Below are positions 14,609 to 19,137 of a stretch of DNA of 64,000 nt, piece after piece. Source of the DNA: Maricaulis sp. (GTDB taxonomy: Bacteria > Pseudomonadota > Alphaproteobacteria > Caulobacterales > Maricaulaceae); contig NZ_JASBRI010000022.1 of assembly GCF_030149515.1 (NCBI RefSeq), forward strand, positions 248,001-312,000, in the 5' to 3' direction. Made by a program: the position numbers and the translations under genes. The stretch's first letter is position 1, and each line of letters opens with the position of its first letter. The notes under the pieces are model-generated. The model was not told the DNA's origin. It made no database searches and saw only the letters and a program-made list of their open reading frames with translations.

Positions 14609-15235
14609 TCACCGGGCGAACAGAAGCAGAAGCGCGATTCCCGCCATGACGCAGCCGGTGACAATGTCCGCTCCGCGCCGCACGGTAGGGGTAACCAGCC
14701 ATTGGCGCGCCCGGTGGGCGCCGGCGATATAGGCGCCCGCCGTCAGCACGGCGAGCACGGCCATGATGGCCAGCATCAGCGCATAGGTCAGCGGGGTGAT
14801 CTCCGCCAGCGGCACAAAGGCCGGTACCAGGGTGAGGTAGAAGACGATGGGTTTGGGGTTGGACAGCGGCATCGCCACGCCGGCGACATAGGTCGCCGCC
14901 CAGGAGCGTTTCGATCCCGCCCTGAAGACCGGCCTGGGCCGCGCCCCGGTCCAGGCACTCCAGAAGGCGCGATAGGCCATCCAGGACAGATAGGCCACGC
15001 CGACAAGCTTGGCCGCCAGCCAGAAAGCGCCCAGTTGCGTGGCCAGCGCAGACAGTCCGGTCACGGCCAGGGTGAACCAGAACATGTCGCCGGTGAGAAT
15101 GCCCACACCATACATTGCCGCATGCCAGGGCCCGGCATCCAGCGTCCGCGCGATCATCGCCGCTATACCGGGGCCGGGCGTGACAAAAAGCACCAGCAGC
15201 GCACCGGCGAACAGGAGGAGGTTTTCCGGGGTCAT
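14609..15235 (-). CDS. LysE family transporter
   Basis: MTPENLLLFAGALLVLFVTPGPGIAAMIARTL...GVAMPLSNPKPIVFYLTLVPAFV; 4-bp overlap with recF stop. Confidence 0.9.
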   Translation of the reverse strand: MTPENLLLFAGALLVLFVTPGPGIAAMIARTLDAGPWHAAMYGVGILTGDMFWFTLAVTGLSALATQLGAFWLAAKLVGVAYLSWMAYRAFWSAWTGARPRPVFRAGSKRSWAATYVAGVAMPLSNPKPIVFYLTLVPAFVPLAEITPLTYALMLAIMAVLAVLTAGAYIAGAHRARQWLVTPTVRRGADIVTGCVMAGIALLLLFAR

Positions 15236-16407
15236 GGCTGCGCCGTCACAGTCGCCGCATCGATCTCGAAATACTGGATTCCGGCGCCGAAGGGTTCGAA
15301 CAGCACGCGCTCCACCCCGGTCAGCCAGGCCTGCGATCCGGTCGCCAGGATTTCCCGGGCGAGGCCCTCGCGCCGTGCCGCATCGAGATGGGCGCAGGCC
15401 TCGTCGAGAAGGAGAAGCGGCGCGGCGCCGTACTGCCGCCCCAGTGCACGGGCCTGCGCCAGGGCCAGGGTGAGGATCAGGGCTTTCTGCTCGCCGGTCG
15501 AACAATCCCCGGCCGGCCGATCCTTGCCGCGATGGCGGGCGACGAGTTCCGTGCGGTGCGGTCCGGGCGTCAGCGTCCGGCCGGCGGCCGCATCCCGGGA
15601 CCGTCCCTCGCGCAGGGCCTGGGCGAACCGGTCTTCCGCCGTGCCGGCATCCAGCCCCCCGGCCAGGCCGGCTTCCACCGCCCCGTCCAGGGCAAGGTCG
15701 GCCTGCGGAAAGGCCCCTTCGGGACGGGCATCGATCTCGCCCTGCAAACGGATCAGGGCCTCCAGGCGCGCCGCGGCCATTGCCACCCCGTGGCCGGCCA
15801 TTTCGGTTTCCAGCGCATCCAGCCAGGCCGGATCGGCGCGCCCCTCGTCCAGCAGGCGCTGACGCCGTGTACGAACCTTGTCGTAGGCGCTGGCGGCTTC
15901 GGCGTGGGCGGGATCGGCGGAGTAGACCAGGCGGTCGAAGAATTTCAGCCGGTCGCCCCGCGGCCCGGCGAAGAGCCTGTCCTGGGCCGGGGTCAGCCAG
16001 ATCATCGGCAGAAGGCGCGCCAGCTGGCCCTGGGGCGCAGGCTGGCCGTCGATCCGCGTCTGCCTGCGGCCGCCCTCTCCCGAACCGACACCCAGGCGGA
16101 CCGCGCCCTCGCGGGTTTGCGCTTCGGCAAAGACGGCCCAGTTCGCCGCCGCGCCCTCATCGCTCTTGCGGACGACGGCATCGGCCCCGGCCGAACGCAG
16201 GCCGCGGCCCGGGGCCAGGAAGGAAACGGCTTCGAGAAGATTGGTCTTGCCGGAACCATTGGCGCCGTAGAGGGCCACAGGGACGGCTTCGAGCTCGAGA
16301 TCGAGCAGGGCATAGCCGCGAAAATCGGTCAGCCGCAAACGACGAACCGCCGCAGGCGGAACCGGCGGCGGCGTCATCTCGTCGTATCCGGCGGGCCCGT
16401 GCGTCAC
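15232..16407 (-). CDS. recF: DNA replication/repair protein RecF
   Basis: RRLRLTDFRGYALLDLELEAVPVALYGANGSGKTNLLEAVSFLAPGRGLR; CSTGEQKALILTLALAQA; LLLLDEACAHLDAARR; follows dnaN with GTGA overlap. Confidence 0.96.
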   Translation of the reverse strand: MTHGPAGYDEMTPPPVPPAAVRRLRLTDFRGYALLDLELEAVPVALYGANGSGKTNLLEAVSFLAPGRGLRSAGADAVVRKSDEGAAANWAVFAEAQTREGAVRLGVGSGEGGRRQTRIDGQPAPQGQLARLLPMIWLTPAQDRLFAGPRGDRLKFFDRLVYSADPAHAEAASAYDKVRTRRQRLLDEGRADPAWLDALETEMAGHGVAMAAARLEALIRLQGEIDARPEGAFPQADLALDGAVEAGLAGGLDAGTAEDRFAQALREGRSRDAAAGRTLTPGPHRTELVARHRGKDRPAGDCSTGEQKALILTLALAQARALGRQYGAAPLLLLDEACAHLDAARREGLAREILATGSQAWLTGVERVLFEPFGAGIQYFEIDAATVTAQP

Positions 16408-17522
16408 ACCCTGAGCGGCATCAGCACGTAGAGCGCATCGGGATCGCCGCTGTCGGTGACCAGCGCCGGCGAGGCGGCGTCGGCAAAGTGGAAGCGGGCT
16501 TCCTCGCCCTCGATCTGGCCGGCGACGTCCAGCATGTAGCGGGCGTTGAAGCCGATGGCGAAGCCTTCATCCGTATACGACACGGCCAGTTCCTCCTCGG
16601 CCTGGCCGCTTTCCGGATTGTTCACGGCCAGGGTCAGCGAGTCCTCGCCAAGGGTGAGCTTCACCGAGCGCGACTTCTCCACCGAGATGGTGGCGACGCG
16701 GTCGACAGCTTCGGCAAAGCGCTTGTTCTCCACCGCCATCAGGCGTGTATTGCCGCGCGGGATGACACGCTCATAGTCCGGGAAGGCGCCGTCGATCAGT
16801 TTCGAGGTGAGGACCGCCCGGCCGAGCCGGAAGCGGATCTTGCCCTCGGAGACGGACACTTCGACCTCTTCACCGGCATCCTCGAGCAGGCGGCGGACTT
16901 CCTGCACCGTCTTGCGCGGCACGATCACGCCGGGCATGCCCGCCGCGCCCTCGGGCAGGTCGATCTCGGCGAGCGCCAGGCGGACGCCATCCGTGGCCAC
17001 GGCGCGCAGGGTCTTGCGGCCATCCTCCTCGGCGGCATGCAGGTGGATACCGTTGAGGTAATAGCGCGTCTCCTCGGTGGAGATGGCGAAACGCGTCTTG
17101 TCGATCAGCCGCGCCAGCTCGTTCGCCGGGACCGAGAAACGGTGTTCGAGATCCTCGGTCGGCATGACCGGGAAGTCACCCGGAGGCAGGGATGGCAGGG
17201 AGAAGTTGGACCGGCCGGCCTTGAGCGTCAGCCGCGGGTCGCCGCCATTCATCTCCAGGGTCACATCGGCCCCGTCGGGCAGTTTGCGCGTGATGTCGTA
17301 GAGCGTGTGCGCGGGGGCCGTGACCAGGCCCTCGCCATCGCATTGCGCATCGGTGGTTTCCAGGATCTCGATGTCGAGATCGGTGGCGGCGAAACTGGCT
17401 CCGTCAGGGCCCGCCGAGATCAGCACATTGGACAGGATCGGAATGGTGTTGCGCTTTTCGACGACGGCCTGAACATGGCCCAGGGCCTTCAGGAGCGTGG
17501 CGCGCTCGATCGTCAGCTTCAT
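16404..17522 (-). CDS. dnaN: DNA polymerase III beta sliding clamp
   Basis: MKLTIERATLLKALGHVQAVVEKRNTIPILSNVLISA...; C-terminal YVLMPLRV. Confidence 0.98.
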   Translation of the reverse strand: MKLTIERATLLKALGHVQAVVEKRNTIPILSNVLISAGPDGASFAATDLDIEILETTDAQCDGEGLVTAPAHTLYDITRKLPDGADVTLEMNGGDPRLTLKAGRSNFSLPSLPPGDFPVMPTEDLEHRFSVPANELARLIDKTRFAISTEETRYYLNGIHLHAAEEDGRKTLRAVATDGVRLALAEIDLPEGAAGMPGVIVPRKTVQEVRRLLEDAGEEVEVSVSEGKIRFRLGRAVLTSKLIDGAFPDYERVIPRGNTRLMAVENKRFAEAVDRVATISVEKSRSVKLTLGEDSLTLAVNNPESGQAEEELAVSYTDEGFAIGFNARYMLDVAGQIEGEEARFHFADAASPALVTDSGDPDALYVLMPLRV

Positions 17523-17697: not shown

Positions 17698-19137
17698 TCA
17701 GCCCTGGAGCTCCTGCGTGAGACGGTCGATGTCGTCTGCCACGGGATCTCCGGCATCGAGCAGCGCCGTCACCTTGTTGACCGCATGGATTACCGTCGAG
17801 TGGTCGCGCCCGCCGAAACGGCGCCCGATATCGGGCAGCGAGCGCGTGGTCATTGTCTTGGCCAGATACATGGCAATATGACGCGGACGCACGACACTCT
17901 GGGTCCGTCGCTTGGAACAGATATCCGCGGGCGTGACACCGTAATGCGACGCCACGGCCTTCTGGATCTCGTCCACGGTGAGGCGCCGCTCCGAGCTGAG
18001 CGACAGCTCGCGCAGGGCCGTCGACACGGCTTCCATCGTCACCGGCAGACCGAGCAGGGCCGTGCGGCAGATGACATTGTTGAGGACCCCCTCCAGTTCG
18101 CGCGGACTGGACGTGATGCGCGCGGCGAGGAAGTCGCGCACGGCCTCAGGCACATCCAGCACCGGATAGTGGCATTTGGCCTGGGCGATCTTGCAGTCCA
18201 GGATTTGCCGGCGCAGGTCGAGATCGGGTTTGCCCAGCGGACAGGCCAGACCGCCGACCAGGAGCGAGCGCAGGCGGTCGTCGGAGACCTGAAGCTCGGC
18301 CGGAGGGCGGTGCGAGGCGAGCACCACCTGCTTGTTCTCGGCCACAAGGGCAGCAACCGTGTTGAGGAATTCGTCTTCGGTCTTGGGCTTGCCGGCGATG
18401 AAATGGACATCGTCGACCAGCAGGACATCCACGCGGCGCACGGTCTCCTTGAAGGCGATCGTGTCGCGTGCCCGCATGGCGGTGACAAAACCGGAGAGGA
18501 ATTCCTCTGCCGTCAGATAAAGCGCCTTGCGCGGCCGCGACGTATGTTCGAACGCGCTGGCCACAGCATGCATCAGGTGGGTCTTGCCGACACCGTAATC
18601 GCCGTAGAAGAAGACCGGATTGAACGGCGGCGTCTGGGCGCCGACCACGGTGCGCGCGGCTGCCGCCGCCACTTCGTTCGCCGGGCCGACCCGGAAACTG
18701 TCGAAGGTGAAGCGGGTCTCGCTGACCGGAGCGCTTTCGGGCGCGGAAGACGCTGCAGGCGCCGGCGCGGTGACTGCGCGCTCGGCGGACGGCGCGACCA
18801 CCGGTTGCGGCTCGGCCTCGCCTTCGGCAACCAGATGAACCGCCCGGTGCGTGCTGTCGAGTTCGGCCCAGATCGCACGAATCCGGGCACCCCAATGATC
18901 CTCGACCCAGTCGCGATTAAAACTGCTGGGTGCGATAATGATTATCGCACCGGACTCCGATACGCGCACACGCAGGCGGGCAATTTCCTGCGAGTATATG
19001 GCCGGACCGCACTCATCTCTAAGATGCGCCCGCACCTGCCGCCAAATCGCCGAAATTCCGTCCGATCTACCCGTCTCGATGCCCGCGGGCTTCGCCTCTG
19101 CCACCGCCAATTTGTTTAACGCCATCGTTCGCCACAC
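17698..19137 (-). CDS. dnaA: Chromosomal replication initiator protein DnaA (atypical AAA+ residues)
   Basis: Walker A GDYGVGKTHL, Walker B VLLVDDVHFIAGK, domain IV SKRRTQSVVRPRHIAMYLAKTMTTRSLPDIGRRFGGRDHSTVIHA. Alternative start at M5 (19125). Confidence 0.95.
   Translation of the reverse strand: MWRTMALNKLAVAEAKPAGIETGRSDGISAIWRQVRAHLRDECGPAIYSQEIARLRVRVSESGAIIIIAPSSFNRDWVEDHWGARIRAIWAELDSTHRAVHLVAEGEAEPQPVVAPSAERAVTAPAPAASSAPESAPVSETRFTFDSFRVGPANEVAAAAARTVVGAQTPPFNPVFFYGDYGVGKTHLMHAVASAFEHTSRPRKALYLTAEEFLSGFVTAMRARDTIAFKETVRRVDVLLVDDVHFIAGKPKTEDEFLNTVAALVAENKQVVLASHRPPAELQVSDDRLRSLLVGGLACPLGKPDLDLRRQILDCKIAQAKCHYPVLDVPEAVRDFLAARITSSPRELEGVLNNVICRTALLGLPVTMEAVSTALRELSLSSERRLTVDEIQKAVASHYGVTPADICSKRRTQSVVRPRHIAMYLAKTMTTRSLPDIGRRFGGRDHSTVIHAVNKVTALLDAGDPVADDIDRLTQELQG

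Follow-up and report, generated by a model that had tools for sequence, protein, structure and literature searches.

Most bacteria of the order Caulobacterales carry a DnaA replication initiator that lacks the arginine finger; the loss is not the oddity of one genome. In other DnaAs, this finger is the sensor of ATP on the neighbouring subunit. In the Maricaulis DnaA encoded in the window (the whole 64,000-nucleotide stretch of DNA that was analysed), a leucine stands at the position of the finger, E. coli R285, and a histidine at the position of the sensor 1 aspartate, D269. We regard it as an even call that this protein functions as an initiator and assembles without R285, with HdaA-driven ATP hydrolysis retained, the finger having been lost in the ancestor of most of the order and the sensor 1 histidine having been acquired later.

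A Maricaulis DnaA with substituted arginine finger and sensor 1 residues

The dnaA open reading frame (17698 to 19137, minus strand, 479 amino acids), identified from the ORF list, Pfam and TIGR00362, opens with a GTG at 19137, but the likelier start is the ATG of residue 5, at 19125. Downstream lie dnaN, encoding the beta clamp (16404 to 17522, minus strand), and then recF (15232 to 16407, minus strand), and an rpsT-like ORF adjoins dnaA upstream, all three names being based on sequence and position. Domains I, III (AAA+) and IV all score over the Pfam cut-offs (DnaA_N, Bac_DnaA and Bac_DnaA_C), and the DnaA equivalog model TIGR00362 gives 422 bits against a cut-off of 343.9. Hda and HdaA proteins are recognised by a lone AAA+ domain with a clamp-binding motif at the N terminus, the DnaA-box domain being missing; domains I and IV are present in the window protein, which scores 78 with TIGR03420, below the cut-off of 194.8. 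A search of the 30-contig Maricaulis draft genome, which is 89.8% complete, found no second dnaA of the kind that the preliminary description had left room for, and in relatives the same protein is the sole full DnaA found. These sequence features identify the window DnaA as the true replication initiator of this Maricaulis.

Alignment and codon mapping place Leu292 (18262 to 18264, minus strand) at the position of the E. coli arginine finger and His276 (18310 to 18312, minus strand) at that of D269, so that two residues expected of a DnaA, the finger and the sensor 1 aspartate, are missing from the window protein. Both substitutions had been read from the sequence in the preliminary description, whose coordinates for the region, 18259 to 18312, proved exact. 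The stretch VVLASHRPPAELQVSDDRLRSLLVGGL aligns without gaps to E. coli DnaA and to the B. subtilis DnaA of known structure, and the segment from sensor 1 to box VII is also gap-free against nearly all of 48 other members of the phylum. A shift of the arginine by one residue, which would have undone the earlier claim, is ruled out by this gapless alignment: the arginine is absent, not displaced. Several sister genera have Arg or Lys at position 287, but a move of the finger to that position is not general, as the residue is Thr, Val or Ile in Maricaulis. Independent Maricaulis genomes share the same two residues with varying synonymous codons (CAC or CAT at 276; CTG, CTC, CTT or TTG at 292), which excludes sequencing error.

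A single-sequence structure prediction (mean pLDDT 43) was replaced by an AlphaFold model made with 40 sequences (mean pLDDT 82), which predicts an ordinary DnaA fold. The nearest solved structures by sequence and fold are the DnaAs of B. subtilis (8btg, 8bv3) and Aquifex aeolicus (2hcb, 3r8f), with Thermotoga also close, and in comparison of the model with solved structures domain III reaches a TM-score of 0.92 to 8bv3. Unlike the window protein, B. subtilis DnaA keeps both its arginine finger (R264) and the sensor 1 aspartate. In the model, Leu292 lies on the predicted box VII helix (287 to 295), and the predicted sensor 1 strand (270 to 275) ends just before His276.

Distribution and history of the two substitutions

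We tabulated residues in 227 non-identical DnaA sequences and that of E. coli, drawn from 251 loci, and in a phylum sample of 48 further DnaA sequences. The Caulobacterales sequences fall into five families, f1 to f5. Maricaulis belongs to f1, and f3 contains apparent Caulobacter sequences: in one of these (L134), the sensor 2 arginine, counted from the first Met, is residue 357, as published for C. crescentus.

R285 is absent from 110 of the 125 Caulobacterales DnaAs and kept in 15, having been lost in four of the five families (present in 2/65 of f1, 0/12 of f2, 0/20 of f3, 2/17 of f4 and 11/11 of f5). It is present in 100 of the 102 remaining sequences, which are other alphaproteobacteria with E. 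coli's own sequence counted among them, and in 47 of the 48 sequences of the phylum sample, the lone exception being a second DnaA. R285 is therefore not family-defining in Caulobacterales. The replacements differ by family (Leu/Ile/Val, Tyr/His, His or Glu/Asp) and are nearly fixed within each, with His in 20/20 of f3, Glu or Asp in 12/12 of f2, and only Leu, Ile or Val in the Maricaulis clade. The change of D269 to His is found in 40 of the 65 f1 DnaAs and is confined to the clade of Maricaulis, Hyphobacterium, Glycocaulis, Oceanicaulis, Marinicauda and Alkalicaulis. Of the suggestions in the preliminary description, an altered ATP switch and a change of interface residue are both plausible. 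The protein is not peculiar, however: its R285 loss is order-wide and its D269 change clade-wide.

Several DnaAs at the edges of this distribution are unusual in their own right. The exception in the phylum sample (L350) has His at 285 (DERDRAHLASGL), and its genome (G439) also has a higher-scoring DnaA. In a genome of 0.9 Mb (G274), a very divergent alphaproteobacterial DnaA (L265) is without R285, D269 and the sensor 2 R334, the last replaced by His. The f5 DnaAs (L191 to L201) keep R285 and have mostly lost D269 (to Glu, Ala, Ser or Gly) and AID-1 R227, the opposite of Caulobacter. Caulobacterales DnaA is unusually divergent overall, notably in families f2, f4 and f5, and the TIGR00362 cut-off is reached in only 74 of 150 genomes of the order versus 119 of 120 across the phylum.

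In a maximum-likelihood tree of 121 DnaA proteins, built with columns 269 and 285 excluded, all R285-less families fall in one clade (SH-aLRT 93, not starred), with three Arg-bearing lineages inside it. The fewest changes over the whole tree are 7 at 285, scored as Arg or not, and 11 at 269, scored as Asp or not. Caulobacterales as a single clade is not rejected (p-AU 0.876). The simplest reading, subject to the branch support of 93 and the long branches of f2, f4 and f5, is that R285 was lost once, in the common ancestor of f1 to f4, with a few lineages regaining or keeping Arg; the residue pattern fits each family then having fixed its own residue at 285. The change of D269 to His is most simply read as a second step, taken once in the ancestor of the Maricaulis-Oceanicaulis clade (support 100).

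Retained residues and alternative explanations

The remaining ATPase motifs are intact, in agreement with the preliminary description, which had judged the Walker motifs, sensor 2 and the DNA-binding domain unaltered: the key residues are retained and Pfam domain IV is present. Alignment and codon mapping locate the Walker A lysine at Lys185 (E. coli K178; 18583 to 18585), the Walker B aspartates at Asp242-Asp243 (D235 and D236; 18409 to 18414) and the sensor 2 arginine at Arg346 (E. coli R334, C. crescentus R357; 18100 to 18102), all on the minus strand. K178, D235 and D236 show 100% conservation in each of the groups tabulated, and R334 is present in every one of the 125 Caulobacterales DnaAs. 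The window DnaA also keeps the AID-1 arginine R234 (R227), K250 (K243) and, in box VII, Arg288 (R281; 18274 to 18276, minus strand), and nearly all f1 DnaAs retain R227, K243 and R281. It thus shares with E. coli DnaA the same domains and conserved Walker A and B, R281, R227, K243 and R334, and differs in R285 and D269, which E. coli has. Two residues after Walker B, a histidine (His245; 18403 to 18405) replaces the glutamine of E. coli (Q238); all f3 DnaAs and nearly all R285-less f1 DnaAs share this His, as do most f2 and roughly half of the f4 sequences, and it recurs in L264, an unrelated alphaproteobacterial DnaA whose R285 is also lost.

The main rival to assembly without a finger is that another residue now acts as the finger in trans: either R281, which sits a helical turn ahead of 285, or the basic residue at position 283 (Arg290 in the window protein, E. 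coli K283; 18268 to 18270, minus strand), a candidate stand-in, would reach the neighbour's ATP, and the switch would be unchanged in kind. R281 is kept in 64/65 of f1, 10/12 of f2, 18/20 of f3 and 12/17 of f4, position 283 is mostly Arg or Lys, and the equivalents of both lie on the predicted helix 287 to 295. Four f4 DnaAs with Thr or Ala at 281 show a reciprocal pattern, carrying Arg or Lys at 285. However, normal DnaAs conserve R281 and an Arg or Lys at 283 just as strongly, so that nothing has been gained. Positions 281 and 285 are both His in the pair of f3 sequences closest to C. crescentus, and both Glu in two f2 sequences. Comparison of residues across domain III also revealed no gained basic residue common to all R285-less families. 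A residue elsewhere may nonetheless substitute for R285, and we consider a takeover of this kind unlikely but deserving of serious attention.

Less probable again is relaxed constraint, under which DnaA would be fast-evolving in this order, self-assembly via ATP would be unneeded since CtrA and DnaA levels time replication, and positions 269 and 285 would drift without function. The many states at these positions between families would suit such drift, as would the scarcity of DnaAs passing the TIGR00362 cut-off (74/150 genomes in the order against 119/120 phylum-wide), but inside families the replacement is nearly fixed while synonymous codons change, and the residues of the ATP site never vary. 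In Maricaulis, the residue class at 276 and 292 is likewise kept while synonymous codons vary, which argues for selection on the replacements.

That the window DnaA is a paralogue or a regulator, the latter a part-time role raised in the preliminary description, has two altered key motif residues in its favour but is very improbable for a protein that is the sole DnaA found in its draft genome (89.8% complete), has domains I, III and IV, lies in dnaA-dnaN-recF order and stands well above the TIGR00362 cut-off, and whose relatives have the same protein as their only full DnaA.

A proposed role of HdaA in ATP hydrolysis without a DnaA arginine finger

HdaA (Hda), the RIDA factor that inactivates DnaA while bound to the replisome, resembles DnaA in its AAA+ domain and differs from the window DnaA in keeping its own arginine finger. 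All 39 genomes sampled, which represent each of the five families and include the window genome, have this finger (PDLVSRL); in the window genome, HdaA is encoded elsewhere, at L212. A DnaA finger lost while the HdaA finger and sensor 2 are kept is what one would expect if hydrolysis control stays and ATP-sensing assembly changes.

Experimental work in E. coli separates these functions: RIDA can do without R285, whereas intrinsic ATPase activity, oligomerisation and DDAH need it, sensor 2 R334 is required for hydrolysis, and R285 and D269 are both required for ATP-dependent assembly and DARS1 action (PMC5742627). C. crescentus DnaA has the same domain plan as the window DnaA, belongs to the same order and keeps the sensor 2 arginine (R357), and the apparent Caulobacter sequences in f3 are also without R285; unlike the window DnaA, it keeps D269 and has His instead of Leu at 285. 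In C. crescentus, the HdaA arginine finger R145 is essential (PMC3836487), and DnaA R357A over-initiates, as shown in a study of ATP-hydrolysis control (PMC3193534), the consulted passages of which make no mention of a missing finger. Hydrolysis control therefore operates in Caulobacter, and its relatives in our set carry His at 285. R285-less DnaAs work in Caulobacter-type bacteria, which goes part of the way towards an outcome that the preliminary description had said would count against its claim; for His at D269, no biochemically studied precedent was found.

Published work shows the finger to be essential in five or six distant species. A 2021 paper calls it invariant and demonstrates that B. 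subtilis and three species of Gram-negative type cannot do without it, since substituting it abolishes unwinding of the origin in B. subtilis, H. pylori, D. radiodurans and the species 'Se' (PMC8287927), and a finger substitution in T. maritima behaves likewise, consistent with E. coli R285A (PMC10316083). Assembly without a finger therefore needs explanation. The otherwise lethal R285A change of E. coli is rescued by an origin that has no ATP-specific sites (PMC6727663), and the Caulobacter origin has a single high-affinity DnaA site (PMC4451416), so that with an origin poor in strong sites a relaxed need for R285 is possible in principle.

Under assembly without R285, DnaA subunits would come together at the origin without the contact between R285 and the gamma-phosphate, by means of domain I, box VII R281, AID-1 R227, DNA binding and a lineage-specific contact at 285, which would be hydrophobic in Maricaulis. 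ATP would still be bound, and its hydrolysis would occur mostly when HdaA on the clamp provides an arginine of its own in trans (RIDA). Timing of initiation would depend less on ATP-dependent self-assembly than on CtrA, HdaA and the supply of DnaA. D269 was reportedly found by Kawakami et al. in 2006 to be important for tight nucleotide binding. Because of this importance and its action at DARS1, His at 269 probably loosens the nucleotide, and ADP might then be exchanged for ATP without dedicated sites.

DnaA boxes and a candidate origin

Matches to TTATNCACA number 7 in the window, fewer than the 10.6 expected by chance, and TTATCCACA occurs only 4 times in the draft genome (89.8% complete). 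The AT-rich gap upstream of hemE (L282:2500-2900) is a possible origin, judged from sequence. It carries GANTC sites and a sequence close to a CtrA site, but nothing that comes within one mismatch of the DnaA box TTATCCACA. In four complete relatives, no obvious cluster of DnaA boxes was seen among the matches listed.

Implications for initiation control in Caulobacterales

DnaA is near-universal, and its finger has been described as invariant and shown to be essential in species from several phyla. The consulted passages of open-access papers on DnaA, the arginine finger and Caulobacter yielded no report of R285 loss in Caulobacterales. We tentatively extend our reading, at somewhat short of even confidence, to most of the order including Caulobacter, in which DnaA would read its neighbour's ATP through no arginine finger, and ATP would govern only HdaA-driven inactivation and not assembly at the origin. 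A single ancient, order-wide loss with the HdaA finger kept would constitute a natural experiment that sets 'ATP to assemble' apart from 'ATP to be switched off'. It is also a reason for care in transferring the E. coli ATP-DnaA model to the Caulobacterales system, and the question is directly testable in the laboratory model Caulobacter crescentus.
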